IMG/VR virus record: IMGVR_UViG_3300044949_001678
Span: 1 to 23,193 of that record
Source: a virus
DNA length: 23,193 bases
Direction: 5' to 3' (one strand)
The notes below the pieces were generated by a model. That model had not been told where the DNA came from, made no database searches, and saw nothing but the letters and a program-made list of their open reading frames with translations. Positions 10,663 through 23,139 of this stretch are shown in pieces (within the stretch, counting starts at the first letter, position 1; every line of letters starts with the position of its first letter). Made by a program: the position numbers and the translations under genes.

Positions 10663-10800
10663 TTATCTCCTATATAAAATTGCTGAAATGCCCAGTAATA
10701 CTGTGAGTTGAAAAGAAGTTAAACACATTTCTGTATTACCGGTAAACTTATGATATAAAAAAATAAAAATACTAATATAGAATAATACTGTTGTATTCAT
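10663..10800 (-). CDS. 45-aa small membrane protein (hypothetical)
   Basis: Found by reading the stretch between nrdJ and the dCMP deaminase gene, which would otherwise be a 135-base gap. The ATG at 10800 overlaps the deaminase TGA as ATGA, the same junction used across this operon, and the TAA ends two bases before the nrdJ ATG. The product begins MNTTVLFYISIFIFLYHKF and has two hydrophobic segments (about residues 4-17 and 30-42) around a short polar loop, ending in YRR. Its last codons contain the AGGAG of nrdJ, so its translation could affect nrdJ. No family is recognised. The perfect fit into the gap supports it being real. Confidence 0.6.
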   Translation of the reverse strand: MNTTVLFYISIFIFLYHKFTGNTEMCLTSFQLTVLLGISAILYRR

Positions 10801-11264
10801 AATACACCACCGAGTTCTTTCAGCCAAGAAAGATTTGGTTCTATATAAATAATTTCTATTCCGCTCATTGAGACAAATTTTCTAAAAATATTTTGGGCTT
10901 CTTCATTGAATAAATGTGTACCATGATTATTTGACATAACTACTTTTCTTATACCTTCTTGCCATAAAGCCATAATACAGTCATTACAACTTTGACCAGT
11001 AACATACGCTATACCATTATCTGGTCTAACAACACAGTTAGATAGCGCATTTCTTTCGGCATGAATCATCCATGGATATTTTTCTGGCCGTGTTCTAGGT
11101 AATAAATCATCATCAAGTCCACGAGGAAAGCCATTATATCCTACGCCTAGAATTCTATCCCTAGAATCTGTGATAACGCAGCCGTGCTGTGTTTGCATAT
11201 CGTGACTACGTTGAGAAACAACTTTAGCCAAACCTAAAAAATAATCTGTCCACGATGGTCTCAT
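10797..11264 (-). CDS. dCMP deaminase
   Basis: A 155-aa zinc-dependent cytidine/deoxycytidylate deaminase that converts dCMP to dUMP, feeding dTMP synthesis. The zinc and catalytic residues are in MIHAERNA (H68, E70) and SCNDC (C93, C96). The second motif is normally PCxxC, and here the Pro is Ser92. The opening RPSWTDYFLGLAKVVSQRS and the GVGYNGFPRG block (41-49) are typical of dCMP deaminases, which supports the ATG at 11264. That ATG has no Shine-Dalgarno site. Instead a near-consensus promoter lies immediately upstream, so translation may start on a leaderless message. It is first in the nucleotide and replication module, followed by a small membrane ORF and nrdJ. Confidence 0.92.
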   Translation of the reverse strand: MRPSWTDYFLGLAKVVSQRSHDMQTQHGCVITDSRDRILGVGYNGFPRGLDDDLLPRTRPEKYPWMIHAERNALSNCVVRPDNGIAYVTGQSCNDCIMALWQEGIRKVVMSNNHGTHLFNEEAQNIFRKFVSMSGIEIIYIEPNLSWLKELGGVL

Positions 11265-11270
11265 GGAAGT

Positions 11271-11298
11271 ATTATAGCAAACCTACGCGTCTGGTCAA
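11271..11298 (-). promoter_or_regulatory. Sigma70-type promoter driving the nucleotide/replication operon
   Basis: On the minus strand TTGACC (11298-11293) and a perfect TATAAT (11276-11271) are separated by 16 bases. The -35 overlaps the stop codon of the GlsB-like gene. Six bases (ACTTCC) then separate the -10 from the ATG of the dCMP deaminase gene. A start point 7 bases after the -10 would fall on the A of that ATG, giving a leaderless transcript, consistent with the absence of a ribosome-binding site. It is the clearest promoter in the window and marks the module boundary. Use of host sigma70 RNA polymerase is inferred from the consensus. Confidence 0.7.
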
Positions 11299-11549
11299 GA
11301 TTTATTTGTTGTGAGTTTGTTATACAGAACCAATGATAATACTGCACCAGCAACACCCATAACAACACCGGCAGGAGATACAGCATCGTAGTTTCCTAAT
11401 AAATACAGGATTGCTCCGCCCATATAAGAGCCAGCAACACCCAATGCTACTGTTTTAACAAAACCAAAATTTTCTTCTCCGGGTACTATACTTTTAGCAA
11501 TAGAACCAACAAATAAACCATATACGCACCATACTAAAATGTTAAACAT
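11295..11549 (-). CDS. GlsB/YeaQ/YmgE-like (transglycosylase-associated) small membrane protein
   Basis: An 84-aa integral membrane protein with three hydrophobic stretches (about 1-20, 30-50 and 55-77). The Gly-rich pattern GLFVGSIAKSIVPGEENFG then TVALGVAGSYMGG (about 11-46) matches the GlsB/YeaQ/YmgE family, which typically reads G-x-x-x-G-x-I-A-x-x-I-x-P-G ... LGIxGAxxGG. Cellular members are general stress or envelope proteins of uncertain function. It is the last gene before the replication promoter and overlaps the 131-aa gene by 8 bases. In a phage, a role as holin-like or envelope-modifying protein is possible but not shown. Confidence 0.65.
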   Translation of the reverse strand: MFNILVWCVYGLFVGSIAKSIVPGEENFGFVKTVALGVAGSYMGGAILYLLGNYDAVSPAGVVMGVAGAVLSLVLYNKLTTNKS

Positions 11550-11937
11550 TTGCTGCCTCCACTAAGGTTATGACTTCATCATCCTTGAGATCTGCTCCTG
11601 TATCTAAAATAGCGTTCAATAGTTGAATACCATATTTAGCATATTGTTCTTTTGGTAACTCTCTTCTTAATATTCTTTTAATTCTCATCTGTGTGAACAG
11701 ACCACGACGAGCACTATATTCTTTAATTTCTGATCCGTAAAGATTGTATTTATCTTGAGAGGTATAGTTTCCAGATAATTTATTTTTATTACATTCTTGT
11801 AATACTCTAATAACTGTTAGAATAATACTAATCATCATAAGAATAGCAATAACGCTACCAAAATTTTCTTCTTGTGGTACTCCGGCTTTATTTAAAACCT
11901 TTGCGGCTATTGCTTTTAACTGTTCATCATTATTCAT
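11542..11937 (-). CDS. Single-pass membrane protein (hypothetical)
   Basis: A 131-aa protein with a soluble N-terminus of about 27 residues, one strong hydrophobic helix (SVIAILMMISIILTVIRVL, about 28-46), and a charged C-terminal domain rich in Arg/Lys that includes FTQMRIKRILRRELPKEQYAKYG (about 81-103). No family is recognised. It is linked to the zinc-motif protein upstream by ATGA and to the GlsB-like gene downstream by an 8-base overlap. The basic juxtamembrane region suggests the large C-terminal part faces the cytoplasm. A structural, holin-associated or injection-related role cannot be distinguished. Confidence 0.65.
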   Translation of the reverse strand: MNNDEQLKAIAAKVLNKAGVPQEENFGSVIAILMMISIILTVIRVLQECNKNKLSGNYTSQDKYNLYGSEIKEYSARRGLFTQMRIKRILRRELPKEQYAKYGIQLLNAILDTGADLKDDEVITLVEAANV

Positions 11938-12272
11938 TTTTTGATTATCCTACATCCATTAGGTCCACATGATATAGTTGTTGAACCACTTTTAGTTACA
12001 CCACTCTTAGATGGTTGTGTGAGTGTTTGTGTGCCTGTTTCTGGCTCACAATATCCACAATCAACCATTTTGATACCGTCACCACTCAAATATTTACCCG
12101 TACCCTTACATACTGGACAATTTTTCCTTTTGTATTTTGTATCAGGCATTTCAATATGTGTAGACTTAATAATGCCGCCAGCCAGAACAACAGATGCCGT
12201 AGTGGATCCTTTGTATTGAGATGATCCAAATAATATAGTTGCTACTAATACTAGCCCTAATAATTTATTCAT
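11934..12272 (-). CDS. DnaJ-type CxxCxGxG zinc-motif protein with N-terminal hydrophobic segment
   Basis: A 112-aa protein. The first 30 or so residues begin with a Lys and a hydrophobic run (LLGLVLVATILFG), then ASVVLAG, consistent with a signal peptide or membrane anchor. NCPVCKGTGKYLSGDG (about 51-66) and DCGYCEP (about 71-77) form a DnaJ/RecR-like double-CxxC zinc motif. A Thr/Ser-rich linker and a last CGPNGCRIIKK motif follow. If exported, the cysteines may form disulphides rather than bind zinc. It directly follows the 55-aa membrane ORF, with an 8-base overlap, downstream of the cysteine peptidase. Function unknown; an envelope-facing chaperone or lysis accessory is speculation. Confidence 0.7.
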   Translation of the reverse strand: MNKLLGLVLVATILFGSSQYKGSTTASVVLAGGIIKSTHIEMPDTKYKRKNCPVCKGTGKYLSGDGIKMVDCGYCEPETGTQTLTQPSKSGVTKSGSTTISCGPNGCRIIKK

Positions 12273-12432
12273 TTTTTACTCTTGGAAAGATTCTTTTTCT
12301 TTTTGGTTTAGGATTATCAATATTATCATCCGCTTCTGTTTTTTGCGGTACTATTAATTTAAGTACCGCCAAGATAAAAGTTAATAGCATACTAATTAGT
12401 CGTTGCAAAGCAATTTTATCTATTAGTCTCAT
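12265..12432 (-). CDS. 55-aa basic membrane protein (hypothetical)
   Basis: Found by reading the stretch between the cysteine peptidase and the zinc-motif gene. ATG at 12432 is preceded at 7 bases by AAGGTG (12440-12445), and the TAA overlaps the next gene's start by 8 bases. The product starts MRLIDKIALQRLISMLL, with one hydrophobic helix at about residues 10-29 (LQRLISMLLTFILAVLKLIV), then an acidic patch (EADDN) and a very basic tail (PKPKRKRIFPR). This fits a single-pass protein with a nucleic-acid- or phospholipid-binding tail. No family is recognised. Its exact fit in the gap, with a good ribosome-binding site, supports it. Confidence 0.65.
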   Translation of the reverse strand: MRLIDKIALQRLISMLLTFILAVLKLIVPQKTEADDNIDNPKPKRKRIFPRVKNE

Positions 12433-12439
12433 TATTATA

Positions 12440-12445
12440 CACCTT
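12440..12445 (-). promoter_or_regulatory. Shine-Dalgarno site of the 55-aa membrane ORF
   Basis: AAGGTG on the minus strand overlaps the stop codon of the cysteine peptidase gene and lies 7 bases before the ATG at 12432. It supports translation of the short ORF. The TATAAT that follows it is not accompanied by a convincing -35. Confidence 0.5.
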
Positions 12446-13367
12446 ATAAGTAATCGAACCCATAATCTGGTAATTTTTGTACAGGAAATCCATTAAAATT
12501 ACTAAAGGCATAAGTTCCATTTTGTTTAATCATGCCTTCTGCTACGTCACTATGGATTAGGAATGAGCCGTCTGGAATTGGACCCCACTCTGGATGATCA
12601 CCATCATTCCATTTACCCCAGCTATTTTGTACCAAAAACGATGTATCCCCATTGGTATCATCACACGCTATCCAAGCCATACAATGAGCCCAACTACCAC
12701 TAGTTCTAGCAAATCCTTTACTATCTCTTTTATTACTAAAACCATAATTAGAACAGACTGCTAATCCATAGCCATTTGCTAATGCGTCTCGTGCTTCTTC
12801 AACACTTTTAATAAGTGATGTAGTTCTAATTTGATGATCATTAGCTAAATCTAATACTTTATCCGGAACACCGCGACCACCCCATCCGGCACCAAGCATT
12901 CCGTCATATTTGCTAAGATCAACAACGCCCTTATAATTTTTACGAACAAGGACACCACCAATTTTATTAACAAATTCAGCGGCCTTGCTACCTGTCATAC
13001 CTTGACCACTCCAACCTCTAGCGCCATAAATGGCTTCGGTTGCTCCTCTTGCTACCCAGCTTTCTTTTTCGCCCAATATATCTATTTCTACCGCTCTACT
13101 AATATCACATGCGTTTCTTGTACCATGACTTACGCAATCGCCAGTAACTTGTCGTTCTTCATAAGGCTTTTTATCAAACTTCAAGACGCTTTTGTATGGA
13201 GTTGATAGTTTACCTTTACCACTATTTGTAATTCTAGAACTAGCATCACCAAAGTATGGATATTTTAAAATTTCCATTAAGTGATCAAATTCTAGTTGAT
13301 TCCAAATGGCTCCTTGAAAGCCTTGTCTATAGTTATTATAAAGATCAATTGGTGATAGTCGAGCCAT
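12444..13367 (-). CDS. Papain-like (C1 family) cysteine peptidase
   Basis: A 307-aa peptidase. The catalytic set is complete: Q73 for the oxyanion hole and C78 in QVTGDCVSHG, H228 in GSWAHCMAW, and N248 in VQNSWGKW, in the canonical order and spacing of C1 peptidases. There is no signal peptide, and the N-terminus is too short to be a typical inhibitory propeptide. GWGGRGVPDKV (160-171) lies between the catalytic Cys and His. It would cleave peptide bonds. The substrate is unknown: virion protein maturation, peptidoglycan cross-links or host protein are all possible. It starts right after the stop of a membrane-anchored protein and precedes several small membrane proteins, so a role in lysis or envelope penetration is plausible. 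Prohead proteases of phages are normally of other families. Confidence 0.85.
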   Translation of the reverse strand: MARLSPIDLYNNYRQGFQGAIWNQLEFDHLMEILKYPYFGDASSRITNSGKGKLSTPYKSVLKFDKKPYEERQVTGDCVSHGTRNACDISRAVEIDILGEKESWVARGATEAIYGARGWSGQGMTGSKAAEFVNKIGGVLVRKNYKGVVDLSKYDGMLGAGWGGRGVPDKVLDLANDHQIRTTSLIKSVEEARDALANGYGLAVCSNYGFSNKRDSKGFARTSGSWAHCMAWIACDDTNGDTSFLVQNSWGKWNDGDHPEWGPIPDGSFLIHSDVAEGMIKQNGTYAFSNFNGFPVQKLPDYGFDYL

Positions 13368-13865
13368 TTATTTTGCTCCTTGTGAACAAGCCCACGCCAA
13401 TGCTTTAAAACCCTCAGCAGCCTGAATGCGGGATTCTCTATTTAATGCTACACTATCATCGCCAATAGCCTCAACTATTACAGCCTTACAAGCTTCTGCT
13501 AATTTAGGATATTTATTTTTAATATCCAGTTTGAGCATAGTTCCCGCTAATTTGTTGGCTTGTCTAATTTCTTCTGTATTTTTAATAACCTCATCATCAC
13601 CATCTAAGGTTACAAGAGTTGCTAAATCTACATATAAACTAGATAATCTTTTACCATCAGTTTTACGATCAGGATCACCGTCTTTTAAAACCCTAACAAC
13701 CTCATCAGCTTTAGCTTTTAAGCCTTCTCTAACCGGTGCAGATAATTCTGCAATATCAACAACAACAGGTTGTGGACGATCTACCAATGATCCAAGATCA
13801 GGTTTGAATAATCCAATTCCTATTAGTATAAAAGCTAATGCTAATAATAATGTTTTAGTATTCAT
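13368..13865 (-). CDS. Membrane-anchored or exported hypothetical protein
   Basis: A 165-aa protein with an N-terminal hydrophobic segment after a Lys (TLLLALAFILIGIGLF, about 5-20), so either signal peptide or anchor. The rest is soluble, acidic and mostly helical, with SAPVREGLKAKADEVVRVLKDG (about 42-63) and KLAEACKAVIVEAI (about 121-134). No catalytic motif is recognised. It joins the 125-aa gene by ATGA, and its stop touches the ATG of the cysteine peptidase. It could be a partner, substrate or inhibitor of that peptidase, on position only. Confidence 0.65.
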   Translation of the reverse strand: MNTKTLLLALAFILIGIGLFKPDLGSLVDRPQPVVVDIAELSAPVREGLKAKADEVVRVLKDGDPDRKTDGKRLSSLYVDLATLVTLDGDDEVIKNTEEIRQANKLAGTMLKLDIKNKYPKLAEACKAVIVEAIGDDSVALNRESRIQAAEGFKALAWACSQGAK

Positions 13866-14239
13866 GTTGACTCCTTATCTCCACAAACTACAGGACTTAA
13901 GTATGGAAACATTTGATCAGCAACTTCTACGGCCTTAACACATCCGCACTCGGCAGCTAAATCTCGCGTTTGTTTCCAGCTTACAATCAGTTTAAAAAAT
14001 ATATCCTCTTTAGTTGTAACAACCGGCTTGACCGACGGAACAACAACAGCAACAGGAGTTACTGGTTTAAGTGGAGATGCGTTTTTAAATTTTTCCACTA
14101 ATCCACCTAATAGTGTTTGCACAGGGCTTAGTTTATCCTTAAATAATACCCATAGTATTAAGCCGACACCAGCGTATAGGGCCAAATCCATTGGTCCAAC
14201 TTTACTAGCAAATTCTTCAAAAGTTTCTGTGTAATTCAT
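13862..14239 (-). CDS. Single-pass membrane protein (hypothetical)
   Basis: A 125-aa protein. A short N-terminal region is followed by one hydrophobic helix (MDLALYAGVGLILWVLF, about 17-33), a Pro/Val-rich linker (about 53-74) and a small helical C-terminal domain with two cysteines close together (ECGCVKAVEVAD). No family is recognised. It overlaps both neighbours as ATGA. It belongs to the same run of small membrane proteins. A spanin- or holin-type function cannot be tested from sequence alone. Confidence 0.65.
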   Translation of the reverse strand: MNYTETFEEFASKVGPMDLALYAGVGLILWVLFKDKLSPVQTLLGGLVEKFKNASPLKPVTPVAVVVPSVKPVVTTKEDIFFKLIVSWKQTRDLAAECGCVKAVEVADQMFPYLSPVVCGDKEST

Positions 14240-14622
14240 AATCCAGCCTCTCTTTTAATAAAAACGCCCGTATTTCTAAAAATGGTAACCGTAGCATCAA
14301 TAGTGGCACTCACCATTATCATGAGCATATTTTTGATGTACTTATGTATAATAGGCTCAACAAGATTGGGAACAAATGGAACATCTATCACTAAAAAGAT
14401 TTTATCATAAAAACTATTCAAAAGATCCATTGCCAAAGCTTTTTTATCAGGATTGCTTAAATCGTTACCAATAGCTTCTATAATTTGTACAACACTAGCT
14501 GTTGTGAGCTGTAATAGTTTCCACGCTTCACCAAGAGCAAAACGCTTAACTTCATTTACTTTTTCTTTTGTGTTGACTATTAGTTTTTCTACTTCTGCTC
14601 TTATTAGTTCTTGGCTTGACAT
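14236..14622 (-). CDS. Hypothetical helical, partly hydrophobic protein
   Basis: A 128-aa protein. The first 35 residues are a charged amphipathic helix (likely coiled coil: ELIRAEVEKLIVNTKEKVNEV). The C-terminal half contains IFLVIDVPFVPNLVEPIIHKYI (about 74-95) and NMLMIMVSATIDATVTIF (about 97-114), which could insert in a membrane. Its first 71 bases overlap the end of the holin-like gene in another frame, so that stretch codes twice. No alternative in-frame ATG is available nearby, so the long overlap appears real. Function unknown. Confidence 0.65.
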   Translation of the reverse strand: MSSQELIRAEVEKLIVNTKEKVNEVKRFALGEAWKLLQLTTASVVQIIEAIGNDLSNPDKKALAMDLLNSFYDKIFLVIDVPFVPNLVEPIIHKYIKNMLMIMVSATIDATVTIFRNTGVFIKREAGL

Positions 14623-14896
14623 CTTTTTTTACCTCTGGTTGTTCTATTAACTTATTTGACTCATTTTGATTAGTCCACCAAATTTTCTTAATCTCATTGC
14701 GGCCTTTTACATATCGAAATAACACCGTTAGCTGACCAATAATCAATATTAATGCTTCTAAACCTCGACTAGTTTCTGCAATCAAATCCTCTTTTTGAGA
14801 ATGATCATTTAGTATACCCAATAAATATAGTCCACTAAATAAGAAGCTTACTAGTGTGAACCAGAACTCACTGGTTTTGTATCCTGGTTTGATCAT
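14552..14896 (-). CDS. Holin-like protein with two membrane segments and a basic tail
   Basis: A 114-aa protein opening MIKPGYKTSEFWFTLVSFLF. Two hydrophobic helices (about 11-28 and 48-62) are separated by a short charged loop, and are followed by YVKGRNEIKK and a long Lys/Arg/Ser/Asn-rich tail. A KTSEFW start before the first helix, two closely spaced helices and a basic C-terminus resemble phage holins. No exact family could be named. The coding overlap with the following gene covers the basic tail. Next to several membrane proteins and a peptidase, holin is the best guess, held loosely. Confidence 0.6.
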   Translation of the reverse strand: MIKPGYKTSEFWFTLVSFLFSGLYLLGILNDHSQKEDLIAETSRGLEALILIIGQLTVLFRYVKGRNEIKKIWWTNQNESNKLIEQPEVKKDVKPRTNKSRSRKTNSQHKRKSK

Positions 14897-15239: not shown

Positions 15240-16400
15240 TTATATAACTCCTAGAATGGAAGAACCGTTGATGCCGCGAGGGATCGGAAACGGCGTGCGA
15301 TTGGCGTAGGTTTCAGTGCCATTCACAACGCCAGTGCTTCCGTTGTACGAACTGTCATTGAAAGTCGCGTCTCCGGTGACGGTGCCGCTGTTGTACGAAC
15401 TGCCGTTGAACGTCGCGTTGCCACTGACGCCGCCGTCGTTGTACGCATTGTTGTTGAACGTGGCGTCTCCGATAACAATGCCGCCGCCGCTGTTATATGA
15501 ACTGTCGTTGAACGTGGCGTCTCCGGGGACGGTGCCTTCGTTGTTGTACGAACTGTCGTTGAACGTCGCGTCTACGCCGAGCGTGCCGTTGTAGTTGTAC
15601 GAACTGTCGTTGAATGTCGCGTCTCCGGTGAAGGTGCCGTAGTTGTTGTACGAATTGTCGTTGAACGTCGCATCGCCGTTGACGGTGCCTTCGTTGATGT
15701 ATGAATAATCATTAAACGTGGCGTCTCCGGTGACGGTGCCGCCGGAGTTGTTGTATGAATAATCATTAAAAGTAGCATGTTGATTGATAGTATTAGAATT
15801 ATCAGCACCTCCATAAAATATAGCATTTCCATTTACGTATCCGTAGTTAATCATATCGATAAATGTAGCATTATTTCCGATATATCCCTCGTTTACCGAC
15901 GATGCTTCAAAAATTGCGTTACCATTTACGGAGCCGCTTCCGTTATTATATCCACCAGCACCAAAGGTAGCATTTCCATTGATAGTACCATTGTTATAAC
16001 CAAGAGAATTAAATAATACACTACCATTAATAATACCATTATTATTTCCGCTATAAGAGGCTCCAGTTAAATAAGCCTTGTGTGCGGTTAGTGTGCCTGT
16101 TAAGAAGGCATCTATTATAATTGCAATAGTATAATATTCCGAAACTTGAATAGCCGTAATATTTATGCCAAGCGTTGCAGTACCGCCGCTCACACTGCCA
16201 TTAGATGGACCACCATCAAAAGTAAGAGTGTTAACTATAGCACCACTACCGCTATTAGTTAAACAATCAGCAATCATTATAACATCGTCAGCACTACTAG
16301 GTAAAGATGTGGCAGGAACGGAGTATACATTATCGCTCCACCAGTTGCCGAGCGTGTTCCAGTTGCTGTCGACCGCGCCGTTGAAATACAGAGTTGCCAT
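15240..16400 (-). CDS. Predicted beta-solenoid repeat protein, putative surface adhesin
   Basis: A 386-aa protein. Residues 1-65 (TLYFNGAVDSNWNTLGNWW, VPATSLPSSADDVIM) resemble the cap found on bacterial and phage proteins with solenoid repeats. Residues about 121-362 hold roughly 14 units of 15-18 aa with consensus GDATFNDSSYN-x-GTV, the hydrophobic A-x-F and the Asn/Asp turns being typical of a beta-solenoid. The end, ANRTPFPIPRGINGSSILGVI, is non-repetitive. Base use is unlike the neighbours: by hand count 15361-15420 is 60% G+C and 16321-16380 is 58%, but 15961-16020 is 30%. This suggests a mosaic of donor segments. It sits among fibre proteins and probably acts in receptor binding or as a virion decoration. 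Confidence 0.75.
   Translation of the reverse strand: MATLYFNGAVDSNWNTLGNWWSDNVYSVPATSLPSSADDVIMIADCLTNSGSGAIVNTLTFDGGPSNGSVSGGTATLGINITAIQVSEYYTIAIIIDAFLTGTLTAHKAYLTGASYSGNNNGIINGSVLFNSLGYNNGTINGNATFGAGGYNNGSGSVNGNAIFEASSVNEGYIGNNATFIDMINYGYVNGNAIFYGGADNSNTINQHATFNDYSYNNSGGTVTGDATFNDYSYINEGTVNGDATFNDNSYNNYGTFTGDATFNDSSYNYNGTLGVDATFNDSSYNNEGTVPGDATFNDSSYNSGGGIVIGDATFNNNAYNDGGVSGNATFNGSSYNSGTVTGDATFNDSSYNGSTGVVNGTETYANRTPFPIPRGINGSSILGVI
15315..16040 (-). repeat. Tandem solenoid repeats (about 14 units of 15-18 codons)
   Basis: In-frame tandem repeats within the 386-aa gene. Units read, for example, GDATFNDSSYNNEGTV. The units closer to the C-terminus are more alike and GC-rich, while those closer to the N-terminus are diverged and AT-rich. 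The 18-base stretch encoding FNDYSY is shared by two adjacent units at the junction of the two composition zones, which suggests recent unit duplication or conversion. Confidence 0.8.
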
Positions 16401-17128: not shown

Positions 17129-18100
17129 TTACACCAGAATACCATCGCCTGTTGCTGTTGCTGTAATATTATTTGGCACAGTATTACTTTGGGTAGCATA
17201 TAACCAATATCCGGCATTTGTAGAACCACCTTTATAAAATCCAGCCTTGGTCCATTCATTAATATTTGGTAAAAAATATTTGGCTCCAACTTTTCTAATT
17301 GGTATACTTAAATTGATATCATATGCTCCGTCTTCTGTAGTTCCGGCATTTTGAGACCCGCTTGGTTTTCCATTATGTAGCCAATTGATATATCGTGCTG
17401 CCATTTTCCAGCTTACAAAATTTATTGGTTTGTTGCCCATATTTGCTTTTACAGTATATACATATTGACTACTACTTCCACTTCCTCCAATCAATGTCCT
17501 AGTAATACCACCAGAAATATTTGTTGCCATATCATTTAAATAAACATTACTAGGAACACTTGGAGCATTATCTATGGAAGCTATTGCTATTAAAAAATCT
17601 TTATACTCATTATTTGTTACATTATATTTAGCGACATTAAATAAATATGGTACTGAACCATATCCGTTTGGTGCGGCAACATTATTAGCATCCCAAACTG
17701 GTATGAAATTATTATATCCATGCGGATTATTTAAAGAGGCTACTCTGAATCCTCTAACCACACCAGCTGCTACTATATTTATATTGAATAAATCAGTATA
17801 TCTTAAATAATTTACGGTATCATCAAATGAAGCGGCATGTCTATACATATAGATTATACCACTAATAGTACTTTGGTAATTTTCTAGATATTCTTCAACT
17901 AGTCCGCTTTGATCATAAGTTCCGTATGCACTAGAACCACCGTTGGTTCCTACTGTAGTTACATTGCCTCCAGGAACAGTAAGTGTGGTTGTTCCATTCC
18001 AGTTTGCTGTTTTATACCAATTCACAGTATTACTACCTATGGGATAAATAATAGATTTAAAATTGGTTAATAAACTATTATTTTTTACGAAAGTATTCAT
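17129..18100 (-). CDS. Formylglycine-generating-enzyme-fold (SUMF1/FGE) protein with circularly permuted block order
   Basis: A 323-aa protein with clear FGE/SUMF1-domain motifs in a shifted order. The blocks that end a normal FGE come first: GNVTTVGTNGG (45-55), YGTYDQSG (59-66, usually YGxYDMxGNVWEW) and RGFRVAS (116-122). The blocks that normally open the domain follow: VAKYNVTNNEYKDFL (156-170), PINFVSWKMAARYINWLHNG (225-244), YFLPNINEW (275-283) and YATQSNTVP (301-309). The protein ends 14 residues later, and residues 19-26 (YPIGSNTV) resemble the YxTxSNTV block again. The break therefore falls in one loop, as in a circular permutation. The catalytic Cys pair of true FGE is absent, so it is probably a C-type-lectin-like binding domain rather than an enzyme. 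It sits in the adhesion module and overlaps the 164-aa gene as ATGA. Likely role: receptor binding at the fibre tip. Confidence 0.8.
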   Translation of the reverse strand: MNTFVKNNSLLTNFKSIIYPIGSNTVNWYKTANWNGTTTLTVPGGNVTTVGTNGGSSAYGTYDQSGLVEEYLENYQSTISGIIYMYRHAASFDDTVNYLRYTDLFNINIVAAGVVRGFRVASLNNPHGYNNFIPVWDANNVAAPNGYGSVPYLFNVAKYNVTNNEYKDFLIAIASIDNAPSVPSNVYLNDMATNISGGITRTLIGGSGSSSQYVYTVKANMGNKPINFVSWKMAARYINWLHNGKPSGSQNAGTTEDGAYDINLSIPIRKVGAKYFLPNINEWTKAGFYKGGSTNAGYWLYATQSNTVPNNITATATGDGILV

Positions 18101-18591
18101 AGCTGTGACGCTATTACAAATCCTTGATCAATTTGTTCTGGAGATAATCCTAAATATTGACCAAGGCTTTCAATAAGAGGATGATTTCTTTCTATATAAG
18201 GAGCATATTCCCATTCTACTCTTGTTTTCTCTCTCAATTTCTCGTTAACAATAGTATCAATAGCGGCCTCAACACTTGTTAAACTAATATCGTTATCGAT
18301 TAACCATAAGCGAACTTGTCGTGCGCTAATACTTTCTGGTACCACAATAGGAATTGGTATCCATGTTCTTGTAATATCAACATATGGTTTATTAATATTA
18401 ACTACTCTTTGAGAAACATCTTCTACTGTATTTTCTGGTTGAGGTGGATTATCACTACGAACAAAATAGTATCCACCTTCAGCAAGAATACTATTATCCA
18501 GATTTTCTCCAGTAATTATTGTTCCATTATCTAGAGTTATGCTAGTTGGTAGACTATCGACTAATTGTTGATTATTAATATTATAGTACAT
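18097..18591 (-). CDS. Tail-associated protein with paralogous N-terminal domain
   Basis: A 164-aa protein of two parts. Residues about 1-85 (MYYNINNQQLVDSLP opening; YYFVRSDNPPQPENTVEDV; RVVNINKPYVDITRTWIP) match the entire 88-aa protein just upstream. The C-terminal part, ISARQVRLWLIDNDISLTSVEAAID, then VEWEYAPYIERNHPLIESLG and LSPEQID, is a small helical domain frequently seen in proteins encoded next to tail fibres. Given its place directly after the fibre gene, a fibre-assembly or fibre-attachment role is likely but not proven. It ends with an ATGA overlap into the permuted FGE-like gene. Confidence 0.75.
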   Translation of the reverse strand: MYYNINNQQLVDSLPTSITLDNGTIITGENLDNSILAEGGYYFVRSDNPPQPENTVEDVSQRVVNINKPYVDITRTWIPIPIVVPESISARQVRLWLIDNDISLTSVEAAIDTIVNEKLREKTRVEWEYAPYIERNHPLIESLGQYLGLSPEQIDQGFVIASQL

Positions 18592-18870: not shown

Positions 18871-21800
18871 TTAAATTTTCTTGCCTATATAATGACCTTG
18901 TATAATCGTCGATCCTATACTACGTAATAGTATAAGATAAACACCAGAAGAGAAAGTTGGTAAAGAAGTATTATACCAATCTGTTACAAACCCGCTATCA
19001 AAAGCAACAGTTGTTGTTGAAGTTACAGTAATTTGAAGCACAACATCAACACTTCGATTTGCTGTTGTCCAACCGGTACCTTCTGTAAAGTTGACACTAG
19101 TTCCATTAAGAGTTACTGTTTGTATTTGTCGATCTACATCATAACTAATAGCAGTATTTCCGCTAACTGTTCCAAGACTGTACACAGGCGTTGGAGCAGA
19201 TATGCCGTCATCTACTGTAATATATCCATTAGTATATACTTCTCCATCAGATTCTAAAGTTAGTTCATTATCAAGTCTGCTCGGACCAGAGCTGGTGATA
19301 ATTGATATTTTTGATGGTTGACTAGTATTAGATCCCCCAAGAACCCCATCCGCAGATCCTAATATTCTTCCAACAGTCTCAGCAATACCGCTAGTATTTG
19401 GTGCTGCATATATTATAGCTCCAATAGTATCGTTATTTAATAAACCAGAAGGTGAGGATTCTGTACCATTAAATCTTCTAAAGATTAATCTTCCACCCAT
19501 AGTAGCTGAAGTATTAGTATCGTAAGCAGTAATTCTTAATCCTGGAACATTACCACTATCTCCAATACTAGTATCGTAAGTAATATCCACTATTTTTGTA
19601 GAATCATTAAAAACTATACCACTTTCGGCAACTATACCTGTTGATGTTCCATCGCTAGTTAGTAATCTATTGTTACCATAATTTGTTATGGTTGTTCCAC
19701 CGCCACCAGTACCACTAGACGATATAGTATAGGTAGTTCCTGATGTTGATACTGTTACATTGCTACCAGCAACTATATTAGTTATTGGTAGCAATCCGCT
19801 TACGCTACTGTTAAAGTCCGTAATATTACTGCTGGTGTGGGTATGGCCTACAACGCTGTAGTTGCCGCTGGGCTGTAATCCAGTAACACTTACAGTATAA
19901 ATATTATTGGCAAATGACGTTGTAGCATATCCGATTCCACTAACACTAGGTAATAGTCCGCTAACGGTGCTATTAAAATCAGTAATATCACTGCTGGTAT
20001 GAGTGTGGCCGCTTAGACTAACTCCGGTTCCATTAACAGTTAATGATGTAAAACTACCACTAGCAGCATTAATAAGACCACCAGCATTCAAACCATTACT
20101 AAAAGTATGAAGTGCGCTAATGGTTCTGTTATTATCAATATGCACATATTGGGAGTGATCATCATCGGCCAATCCGAATAAACTACCATGATCATTTTGA
20201 ACAACACCAGCAACAGTAGATTGAATAGCCACTCGTATATCTAGTATACTTTGTAAGCTACTCTTTGGCGTATTTGTATAGGTAGAATTGGTTTTAAAAA
20301 TTAGTCGATATAGTGGTCTTATTTCTTGTGTTGGAATATTAGTAAGATTAATATCATTCCAATTATTGTGACTCTCGGCACTATTTAAACTGCTATCCTC
20401 TCTTTGACCAACTATAGCAAGAATAGGATCATTAATATCGTTTGTTGCCACAATCCACATTGCGAAAAATCTATCGTTAGTAACGTTTGGAATTGTCCAA
20501 GTTCCCCCACTAAATAGATTGTACTGAGCGCGTGTTCCATTGTATTTTACTGGGAACGCTGTGGCAGAGTCTCTTACCCACTGTCCCGTTGAACCACTAT
20601 GATAGTAGGTAGGAATATAGGCTATTGGATTAAGTGTTTGAACAAATTCATTGGCACTATTAATTCCATTATCATTAGTAATATCTATAATTATATCTTC
20701 TTGATATAAAACACCATCAGATATATCAATTTGAGCATGACTGTTAGAGGATCCATTACCTAATAAGATGTATCCACCAATACTAAGACCATTAATATAT
20801 TGTATGCCGAAAGTGTTGTGTATCCATTTATGAGTAACACTATCCATGCGGATTCCATGACGTTCTTCACCAAAAAATGTGCTTTGATTAATATCAGCAT
20901 TCCAATGAATATAAGCTATCGGTACATCAGTATCAAAATTAAATCCTGTTGTTTTATTATCCAATAATCCAGTGTCAGTATTAAAATGAAGATAATTTAG
21001 TGCAGTTCCAGTTGGTATAACAATACTTTCGCTTGTTGTTTTAGTAACTTTAATTCCCTCAATATAAACATCATAACTTGCTCCACTAGGAGCAATAGTA
21101 AATGTTCTGGTACTATCATTAAAGCTAATAACACTATCAAGTCTATTTACAAATCCTTGAGGTTCTAAACTAAGTTCATTAATTTCAGTGTGAAGATTAT
21201 CCAATCTTAGAGTATTAGCTGGATCGTCATATGTTAATTGAACGCCAGTGCCAGCGACTAAAAATCCACTACCTAAATTATCTTGAATAACTTCTGTTAT
21301 GACACCACTAATATCAGCATTAATAGTATAAATACCACTAGACGATGATACAGAAATACCGCTACCAGCTAATATGTCTTTAACTGGAAGTAGTCCACTA
21401 ACGGATGAATTAAAGTTTGTGATGTCATTAGTAACGTGAGAGTGACCACTAATGCTCACCACCACCCCTCCAACTGTTAAACTATCAAAATTGCCAGTTC
21501 CGCTAGGAATAGTTACTGATCCAGTGAAAATAGCTCCGCTTAAATTTGCCTTTTGTCCCAATCCACTAGCAATAGTGGTGGCAAAATTAGGATCGTCACC
21601 TAGTGCTGCTGCTAATTCATTAAGAGTATCTAGTGTTGATGGGGCGGAGTCTATTAGGTTACTGATTTCTGTTCTAACAAATGCTGTGCTAGCAATTTGG
21701 GTAGAATTTGTTCCGCTTGGTGCTGTTGGCACAGTTGGGGTGCCACTAAAAGCGGGACTATTATTAAATACTAAATTTCCAGATCCAGTTTCATCACTAA

Positions 21801-23139
21801 TTAAAGTATTAAGATTACTACTAGACGGTGTTAATAAAAAAGTTCTAGCATTAGAAGATAGATCTGTAATATCAGCTAGTTGAATAGTAGGATCACTTAA
21901 TGTTACAAAATAATTTGTGCCACTATTAGTGACAACTATTCCGCTTAATCCAGTTAGTGAAGTAAAGTTAGACGGAGGAATCAATCCACTAACAGCACTA
22001 TTGAAGTCTGTGATATCAGAACTAATATGATAATGAATACCACTAGCATAAACTCCACTTGGTTGTTTACTATCTAAAGCATTTTGCAATCCCGAAACAT
22101 CAGCTATAACATGTGAATGACCAACAACACTATAGTTACCACTTGGTTGTAGCCCACTAGCGCTAAGAGTATAGATATTATTAGCGAAAGACGATACTAT
22201 ATATCCGCTGCCACTAACGCTAGGAAGGAGTCCGCTTACTCCGCTATTAAAGTCTGTTATATCACTAGTATTGTGAGAGTGTCCAATTAAACTATAGTTT
22301 CCACTTGGCTGAACGCCAGTAACAGAAATTATTAGACTGTTTCCTAAATCATTATAATTAAGATTTACATAATTACCACCCACTAATAAATTACTTACTC
22401 TATCATCAACTTCTTCGTCAGTAAGACCAAAAGTCCCAGTAACACTAACTGTAAAATCACCAGAAACTGAAGATATTCCTATGCCGCTGCCAGCACTAAT
22501 ATTCTTAACAGGAAGAAGTCCGCTAACACTAGAGTTAAAATCTGTAATATTAGAGCTTGTATGAGTATGACCATCAACGCTATAATTTCCACTAGGTTGT
22601 AGTCCTGTTACAGAAATAGTATAAAGATTATTAGAAAAAGACGAAGAGACATAGCCAGTGCCAGTTACACTTGGTAACAAACCGCTTACACTACTATTAA
22701 AATCTGTTATATCGCTACTAGTATGAGTATGAATAGCATTAGCATAATTGCCACTAGGTTGTAATCCAGTGGCAGATATTGTAGTAAATCCTGTATTATC
22801 GTTATAATTAATATTAATATAATTTCCAGCTAATAACCCACTATTACCAATAATATCTTGTACGGTTTCTAATAGACTTACAGGATCACTATTATTTGAT
22901 GAAATAGTATATATGCCACTAATACTACTAACTGAGATTCCACTACCAGCCACTATATCTTGCACAGGAATTAGCTCACTAATATCCGAAGGCAATAATG
23001 CTATACAATGAGAAACTTCTACTAGTGCAGTATTGTCATATGTAACTATATCTATAGATGATGGCTGATCACCAATACAAGTTTCGATTTCTATGGTGTT
23101 GATATTGGGATCTAAAATTTGTACATCAAAACAGCTCAT
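18871..23139 (-). CDS. Tail fibre protein with repeated HxH/DITDFNS modules
   Basis: A 1422-aa fibre. The N-terminal about 90 residues (MSCFDVQILDPNINTIEIE) probably attach it to the tail. From there on, about seven units of the form GHTHTSSDITDFNSSVSGLLP recur, separated by SVTGLQPSGNY and YTISxTG strands. One variant reads HSHVIADVSGLQNALDSKQPSG. A STAFVRTEISNLIDSAPSTLDTLNELAAALGDDP segment near residue 480 is a known fibre motif. A unique region (about 660-960) holds NDHGSLFGLADDDHSQYVHIDNNRTISA. The C-terminal about 300 residues form a beta-rich tip with several Gly-rich strands. HxH motifs in phage fibres can bind metal between trimer chains; this is known for T4 gp37. The ATG overlaps the upstream stop as ATGA. 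Confidence 0.9.
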   Translation of the reverse strand: MSCFDVQILDPNINTIEIETCIGDQPSSIDIVTYDNTALVEVSHCIALLPSDISELIPVQDIVAGSGISVSSISGIYTISSNNSDPVSLLETVQDIIGNSGLLAGNYININYNDNTGFTTISATGLQPSGNYANAIHTHTSSDITDFNSSVSGLLPSVTGTGYVSSSFSNNLYTISVTGLQPSGNYSVDGHTHTSSNITDFNSSVSGLLPVKNISAGSGIGISSVSGDFTVSVTGTFGLTDEEVDDRVSNLLVGGNYVNLNYNDLGNSLIISVTGVQPSGNYSLIGHSHNTSDITDFNSGVSGLLPSVSGSGYIVSSFANNIYTLSASGLQPSGNYSVVGHSHVIADVSGLQNALDSKQPSGVYASGIHYHISSDITDFNSAVSGLIPPSNFTSLTGLSGIVVTNSGTNYFVTLSDPTIQLADITDLSSNARTFLLTPSSSNLNTLISDETGSGNLVFNNSPAFSGTPTVPTAPSGTNSTQIASTAFVRTEISNLIDSAPSTLDTLNELAAALGDDPNFATTIASGLGQKANLSGAIFTGSVTIPSGTGNFDSLTVGGVVVSISGHSHVTNDITNFNSSVSGLLPVKDILAGSGISVSSSSGIYTINADISGVITEVIQDNLGSGFLVAGTGVQLTYDDPANTLRLDNLHTEINELSLEPQGFVNRLDSVISFNDSTRTFTIAPSGASYDVYIEGIKVTKTTSESIVIPTGTALNYLHFNTDTGLLDNKTTGFNFDTDVPIAYIHWNADINQSTFFGEERHGIRMDSVTHKWIHNTFGIQYINGLSIGGYILLGNGSSNSHAQIDISDGVLYQEDIIIDITNDNGINSANEFVQTLNPIAYIPTYYHSGSTGQWVRDSATAFPVKYNGTRAQYNLFSGGTWTIPNVTNDRFFAMWIVATNDINDPILAIVGQREDSSLNSAESHNNWNDINLTNIPTQEIRPLYRLIFKTNSTYTNTPKSSLQSILDIRVAIQSTVAGVVQNDHGSLFGLADDDHSQYVHIDNNRTISALHTFSNGLNAGGLINAASGSFTSLTVNGTGVSLSGHTHTSSDITDFNSTVSGLLPSVSGIGYATTSFANNIYTVSVTGLQPSGNYSVVGHTHTSSNITDFNSSVSGLLPITNIVAGSNVTVSTSGTTYTISSSGTGGGGTTITNYGNNRLLTSDGTSTGIVAESGIVFNDSTKIVDITYDTSIGDSGNVPGLRITAYDTNTSATMGGRLIFRRFNGTESSPSGLLNNDTIGAIIYAAPNTSGIAETVGRILGSADGVLGGSNTSQPSKISIITSSGPSRLDNELTLESDGEVYTNGYITVDDGISAPTPVYSLGTVSGNTAISYDVDRQIQTVTLNGTSVNFTEGTGWTTANRSVDVVLQITVTSTTTVAFDSGFVTDWYNTSLPTFSSGVYLILLRSIGSTIIQGHYIGKKI
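19795..22740 (-). repeat. Dispersed HxH/DITDFNS coding repeats in the tail fibre
   Basis: Repeats of about 60 bases encode HTHTSSDITDFNSSVSGLLP-like units at about 19799-19855, 19951-20010, 21390-21445, 21985-22035, 22225-22285, 22515-22575 and 22680-22735, with a related HSH-IADVSGLQ unit near 22090-22130. They are in frame and belong to the fibre shaft. Homologous repeats could recombine and change fibre length. Confidence 0.75.

Follow-up and report, generated by a model that had tools for sequence, protein, structure and literature searches.

A circularly permuted FGE/SUMF1-type domain, probably a tail-fibre-associated binding module, in a tailed phage

A phage gene with the halves of its domain in inverted order

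Can a protein in which the parts of a formylglycine-generating enzyme (FGE)/SUMF1-type domain follow one another in the wrong order be a single intact domain that was cut and rejoined? This question is raised by a minus-strand gene of the window, by which we mean the whole 23,193-nucleotide stretch of viral DNA analysed here. We assign a probability of roughly 0.8 to the reading that its product is a non-catalytic, circularly permuted FGE/SUMF1-type (C-type-lectin-fold) domain of a tailed phage, most likely a tail-fibre-associated binding module. The gene has the following features.

17129..18100, minus strand: permuted FGE-fold protein, 323 aa, complete open reading frame (ORF) from ATG to TAA (ORF, profiles and model)
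18041..18100, minus strand: residues 1–20, N-terminal extension, with residues 7–15 at pLDDT <50 (AlphaFold2 model)
17735..18040, minus strand: residues 21–122, canonical C-half, placed first; GSNTVNW ... YGTYDQSG ... RGFRVAS (motifs, alignment, half-profiles)
17753..17890, minus strand: residues 71–116, most variable stretch of the family and candidate ligand-binding surface (entropy)
17702..17734, minus strand: residues 123–133, where the old C and N termini are joined (rotation scan, half-profiles)
17168..17701, minus strand: residues 134–311, canonical N-half, placed last; VTNNEY ... FVSWKMAARYINWL ... LPNINEW ... YATQSNTV (Pfam, motifs, half-profiles)
17132..17167, minus strand: residues 312–323, end of the opened loop (...TATATGDGILV) (alignment)
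17129–17131, minus strand: stop codon of the permuted gene (ORF)

The canonical order of N-half followed by C-half is absent from this protein, in which the C-half (residues 21–122) precedes the N-half (residues 134–311). The initial annotation had located YGTYDQSG at residues 59–66, RGFRVAS at 116–122, VTNNEY at 161–166, FVSWKMAARYINWL at 228–241, LPNINEW at 277–283 and YATQSNTV at 301–308, and these positions are right. The Pfam FGE-sulfatase model (PF03781) matched residues 153–298 with 28.7 bits (gathering threshold 23.3; E = 1.3e-6), and this match of the N-half covers profile positions 36–131. Half-profiles built from 70 permuted units (the A2 set, window protein included) scored 79.7 bits for the C-half and 213.7 bits for the N-half, and gave nothing above 8.5 bits in the remaining frames of the window. 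The A2 set was derived from 107 permuted units at 83 loci, reduced to 72 distinct sequences and then to 70 at <88% identity; the window's own sequence stands in for the copy at one of these loci (L001).

Four further IMG/VR contigs encode the protein with 100% identity, and their DNA agrees with that of the window at 99.49–99.98% over 9.7–12.1 kb, which rules out an assembly accident. No PHROG or NCBIfam family matched the window protein, and 50,697 GenBank phage records held no match to it or to a canonical query (L088). Sixty-six of the 70 A2 members match phrog_18508, which PHROGs labels 'kinase'; where this match was examined (five permuted units, one canonical domain), it spans about 80 residues of the N-half.

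Rotation makes the domain collinear with bacterial homologues

We compared the protein with a bacterial profile of 282 columns, made from 22 canonical-order homologues that were selected as nearest. In its native order the window protein aligned to this profile as two inverted pieces, a C-half of 54.8 bits and an N-half of 186.0 bits. When all rotations were scored, the best single alignment rose from 186.1 bits in native order to 231.3 bits at rotations 126–129, and the rotated protein spanned columns 4–280 of the 282 in a single piece. Rotation improved the best single alignment of all 70 of 70 phage units (window included), by 45–124 bits, and the mean rose from 214 to 300 bits. Bacterial controls gained essentially nothing: among the 30 best-scoring of 73 bacterial canonical domains kept out of the profile, 29 peaked at rotation 0 and one at rotation 3. 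The HMMER sum over both pieces in native order, 235.1 bits, is already as high as the score after rotation; what rotation reveals is collinearity, with no added homology. The Pfam FGE model was nearly flat under rotation of the window protein (28.7 to 29.9 bits); this model also covers the canonical member L088 only up to position 189 of 255.

The permuted-family profile matched solved FGE-family chains in inverted order. Its comparison with solved SUMF2 paired profile positions 29–94 with chain residues 195–267 and, in weaker pieces, positions 124–144 with residues 35–55 and positions 184–201 with residues 115–132. These pieces come in inverted order, and taken alone only the first is significant. 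In the window protein every canonical part is present and the parts are collinear only once rotated, as in a circular permutant. The rotation scan and the inverted profile matches bear out the proposal of the initial annotation that one intact FGE-type domain had been circularly permuted, with the cut in the loop after YATQSN..P.

In alignment, the uncut loop of bacterial homologues has a sequence like YATQSDTAPTAVTADGVGNGSAAGTGNFANYNRAADW. The window protein ends in YATQSNTVPNNITATATGDGILV and starts, after about 20 extra residues, with GSNTVNWYKTANW; end and start match the bacterial loop, so the domain is complete, with little duplication. At the meeting point of the present termini, the rotated alignment to the bacterial profile has an insertion of 20 residues. 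In the wording of the bacterial loop, the cut falls between ...TGIGSAG and STGNFANY.... The old termini are joined by about 11 residues and the new termini lie in a loop, again as in a circular permutant. One detail of the initial annotation did not hold: it had equated YPIGSNTV (residues 19–26) with YATQSNTV (residues 301–308), a register that is wrong, as IGSNTV pairs with STGNVA(NY) after rotation, about 23 profile columns further on.

The permuted protein is modelled as one domain

Given a 70-row alignment, AlphaFold2 produced a single confident domain with a pLDDT of 88.7 and a pTM of 0.88; with a 5-row alignment the pLDDT was 34.1. The initial annotation had named a prediction of two half-domains that do not pack as evidence that would count against permutation, and the confident model is instead one domain. 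We also compared the model with solved structures using VIA-align, which aligns in sequence order. In 13 of 16 rows the alignment begins at model residue 123–130, in the N-half, ends near residue 320 and pairs this part with FGE-fold chains. Among the best matches were CarF (5aoh, molecule name CotH; Z 6.3, rmsd 3.6, 146 aligned, chain 2–196) and TvpA (2y3c, Treponema denticola variable protein 1; Z 5.4, rmsd 3.9, 138 aligned, chain 53–240), both of them C-type-lectin folds; the sequence-order alignment reaches only model residues 127–320 and 123–319 in these two cases. A further row, 6muj, aligned 126 residues over chain 20–214 (Z 4.6, rmsd 3.1), and three rows (7spq, 8ux5 and 8khq) start at residue 5 or 36, in the part of the model that precedes the N-half. 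Pairing of the N-half only should mostly be expected when a sequence-order aligner meets a permuted partner, and the Z values are modest.

A C-type-lectin fold of TvpA is named in the title of a reference within PMC10743442. Foldseek searches with the model found no match in PDB or BFVD at E ≤ 0.001, and the best E of the BFVD fold search was not under 1.6. The window protein resembles FGE, SUMF1 and SUMF2 (PF03781) by a Pfam score above gathering and by profile and structure matches, but differs from them in its permuted order and in having no cysteine.

The permuted order predominates in viruses

To describe gene architectures we write C and N for the two halves in their order along the chain. 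The lists hold the best 80 matches per scan, of 145, 297 and 177 viral matches and of at least 552 bacterial ones. Within these best 80 matches per scan, the C-then-N order occurred in 97 of 124 distinct viral ORFs (76 from the loci of three scans, together with those of a canonical-query scan), with plain NC in 24 and single halves in 3; the 107 bacterial ORFs comprised 92 NC, 3 NCNC, 10 C, 1 N and 1 CN. The 76 viral ORFs (window included), from the same best 80 matches per scan, divided into 59 CN, 9 CNCN, 3 CNCNCN and one with five CN units, plus single cases of CNNC, NCNCN, CNN and N. Simple arrays elsewhere start with C and finish with N. Among the best 80 matches per scan, the spacers from N to C inside arrays of permuted units were 46–809 residues long, and of 120 viral C-to-N joins 116 measured 9–14 residues, the remaining four being 17, 36, 260 and 264. 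One ORF of 3200 aa (L005) carries four C-then-N units with long linkers between them. Such relatives with lone permuted units, or with units spaced by long linkers, strengthen the case for permutation, as does the confident one-domain model.

A Thr/Pro stretch, defined as 17 of 30 residues being Thr or Pro, was found in 79 of the 97 viral C-then-N ORFs, compared with one of the 24 viral ORFs in canonical order and none of the 107 bacterial ORFs (best 80 matches per scan); the window protein is without one. Planctomycete and verrucomicrobial FGE-sulfatase-domain proteins (such as L088, L138 and L098), some with a PEP-like C terminus, share both halves and the loop motifs with the window protein. 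Bacterial relatives differ from it in running from N-half to C-half, as they do in 92 of 107 ORFs (95 counting NCNC) among the best 80 matches per scan. Viral canonical FGE-like domains (the second domain of L042, L246 and L248) belong to the family of the permuted unit in its ordinary order, and cluster with bacterial forms in trees, where the L042 domain is represented by a second copy, L203.

Three loci deserve separate mention. In L042, a stop-to-stop ORF of 1792 aa, permuted and canonical FGE-type domains adjoin within residues 921–1497. L143, on the contig of an Eisenbacteria metagenome-assembled genome, is the only bacterial CN among the matches listed; the end of its N-half is missing and it groups with canonical rows in the 77-row tree described below, and it could represent phage DNA that was binned with a bacterium, or else an independent instance. 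In L106, from Phycisphaerae, canonical domains stand in tandem, 12 residues apart, and a permutation could arise from an intermediate of this type.

A second cut site

In two proteins the chain is opened elsewhere. L307 (a 360-aa frame) and the first unit of L052 have the order N-half end, C-half, N-half start, with profile bounds that run from about 129–132 for the N-half end and to about 126–131 for the N-half start. The loop that is cut in the window protein is intact in both, a join of the window kind is present (GFRVASFSNPLSLANF in L307), and the opening lies in the loop before the LPSYDEW/IPSLDEW motif. Insertions occur near this loop in other members, of a few dozen residues in L063 and of about 117 residues in L314 and L315.

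A tree of 45 rows, subsampled with the window included and with the long L061 rows and L143 left out, separated the permuted and alternative forms (27 rows) from 18 canonical rows with a branch support of 93/66, the branch not being starred; a clade of the permuted rows alone was not rejected in this tree (AU p = 0.28). In a 77-row tree, subsampled from 157 rows and without the window protein, the alternative pair and L058 fell on the canonical side with weak support. Spurious rows had been removed before this tree was made, namely L051 (an N-to-C step over two permuted units) and L106 (the tandem canonical junction). It is possible that the termini were fused once and that the chain was then opened in different loops.

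A cysteine pair beside the new ends

Many relatives of the window protein carry cysteines at positions corresponding to residues 31 and 311, beside the new ends. Among the 70 units, 30 had both cysteines, 3 only that at 31, 1 only that at 311 and 36 neither (Fisher test, p = 2.8e-15), the strongest association among 78 cysteine column pairs. The cysteines also co-occurred in 28 held-out units, which are <88% identical to the 70 (both 7, 31 only 1, 311 only 0, neither 20; p = 6.8e-6), and the counts for all 98 units were 37, 4, 1 and 56 in the same order; these p-values are inflated by shared ancestry. Allowing a slack of two columns weakened the co-occurrence to 39, 3, 11 and 45 of 98. The 92 bacterial canonical domains had no cysteine at either position with a slack of 2–3 columns.

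We examined the role of ancestry with a quick 70-row tree made without both columns, on which one trait changes 16 times and the other 17. Independent contrasts on well-supported branches numbered only 3, of which on average 2.9 went in the same direction (p = 0.25), a number too small to carry a test. We read the 31–311 pair as a predicted disulfide in relatives. Because the window protein is free of cysteine, such a staple does not apply to it. A second pair, 23–121, was considered and rejected: it gave 4, 1, 1 and 64 in the 70 units but 0, 7, 3 and 18 in the 28 held-out units.

Origin of the permuted order and alternative explanations

The probable explanation for these forms is that, in phages, the old termini became fused, with tandem copies connected by a short join, and that the chain was then opened elsewhere. 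Duplication followed by deletion, the route suggested by the initial annotation, is plausible. The order seen in L307 and L052 would go back to a further opening of a chain fused in this way, and in about four tenths of the units the opened loop would be stapled by the cysteine pair at the new ends. The shifted termini might let the domain thread between linkers. Taken further, the family may descend from one fusion that produced an endless chain, opened by different phages in at least two loops, with the main type often reclosed by a newly evolved cysteine pair, a disulfide taking the place of the lost backbone connection; we hold this extended history tentatively, at slightly less than even odds. 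If it is true, the family would present a natural and widespread circular permutation with the compensating staple caught in the act.

The inverted order could also arise if the C-half of one lost canonical domain were followed by the N-half of another, the two not folding together. The bacterial tandem L106 demonstrates that such a junction can resemble a C-join-N unit, its spacer being 12 residues. We nevertheless consider this origin very unlikely. A half-profile scan of the window's six frames found no second FGE half, and hence none of the flanking FGE copies that the initial annotation had named as grounds for abandoning permutation; 59 of the 76 distinct viral ORFs hold exactly one C-then-N pair, and the N-to-C spacers of arrays are 46–809 residues long (both among the best 80 matches per scan). 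The single confident domain of the AlphaFold2 model and the co-occurrence of cysteines on the two halves argue in the same direction. Phage fibres are commonly oligomeric, and the C-half of one chain might instead complete the N-half of its neighbour in a fibre or other oligomer. That general property of fibres favours such an exchange, with which the single-chain AlphaFold2 model is compatible, but the short, near-fixed join (9–14 residues in 116 of 120, best 80 matches per scan) and the single-chain pTM of 0.88 make it unlikely.

A search of titles and abstract openings in the open-licence literature, a body that excludes bioRxiv preprints, found no description of a permuted FGE or C-type-lectin fold. 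The family is well suited to the study of topology change in proteins: permuted and canonical forms both exist today, the join is conserved, the chain has been cut at more than one site, and two cysteines at the opened loop covary. It also shows how annotation overlooks permutation: a comparison in sequence order detects one half at a time, and PHROGs calls the relatives 'kinase'.

Genomic setting and probable function

Upstream of the permuted gene, on the same strand, lie two genes that bear on its function.

18097..18591, minus strand: 164-aa gene, phrog_6034 (unknown function), with a 4-nt overlap with the permuted gene (PHROGs)
18871..23139, minus strand: 1422-aa tail-fibre-like protein with phage tail repeats, three genes upstream (Pfam, PHROGs)

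Next to the fibre genes, window positions 15240–16400 encode a 386-aa protein that consists mostly of GDATFNDSSYN-type repeats, the DNA repeats being about 74–80% alike. We compared gene order across 17 selected loci on 16 contigs. The order of a neighbouring gene cluster at window positions 10797–14896 is kept in whole or in part in 6 of the 16 contigs (L011, L013, L014, L016, L018 and L073), and the permuted gene does not keep a fixed position with respect to this cluster.

From the gene neighbourhood and the linkers of relatives, the permuted protein is a putative adhesin; if it is one, it would be a new receptor-binding scaffold in uncultured phages. Residues 71–116 have a mean entropy of 2.93 bits, versus 0.95–2.22 in eight other stretches, and this variable stretch may be the part that contacts the ligand.

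Kinship in sequence and fold to FGE, PvdO, EgtB and CarF, and weak NCBIfam matches among relatives, raise the alternative that the protein is a catalytic formylglycine-generating or EgtB/PvdO-like enzyme and not a binding module. In agreement with the initial annotation, which had noted that the catalytic cysteines are missing, the 323-aa protein contains 0 cysteines. The catalytic cysteine pair of FGE, which sits in the canonical C-half, is thus missing from it. The NCBIfam matches come from three permuted relatives and lie far under the curated cut-offs, the window protein having none, and the tail-fibre-like gene close by and the linker-rich arrays among relatives also speak against catalysis. 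The high variability of residues 71–116 suggests another alternative, that the gene is the target of a diversity-generating retroelement and its permutation incidental; FGE-type C-type-lectin folds are known targets according to PMC3521204. A reverse transcriptase (PF00078) was found in 0 of 23 carrier records, which may be fragments. We give the retroelement reading very little credence, about as little as the junction of two lost domains, and the enzymatic reading marginally less still; a non-catalytic binding module remains our preferred reading.

On L003, a contig of 92,962 bases that belongs to the virus of the window, a direct scan of a 670-aa ORF against PHROGs identified it as the terminase large subunit (E = 4.5e-22). 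The terminase-family search, made with phrog_2, also matched 11 of 14 control genomes, and the direct scan of the ORF confirmed the label; the Pfam Terminase_6N match of this ORF was under the cut-off. The nearest GenBank phage record to the ribonucleotide reductase of the window is a Rhizobium phage, at 47%. The terminase large subunit and the kinship of the ribonucleotide reductase point to a tailed phage. The window protein and its relative in L011 (66% identical, 314 codons) differ with a dN of 0.26 and a dS of 1.61, which suggests purifying selection, with dS near saturation. Two phage records have phrog_2 matches with one in-frame TAG each (G009:C1:23171-24628 and G023:C1:230243-231700), possibly reflecting stop-codon recoding or an interruption.
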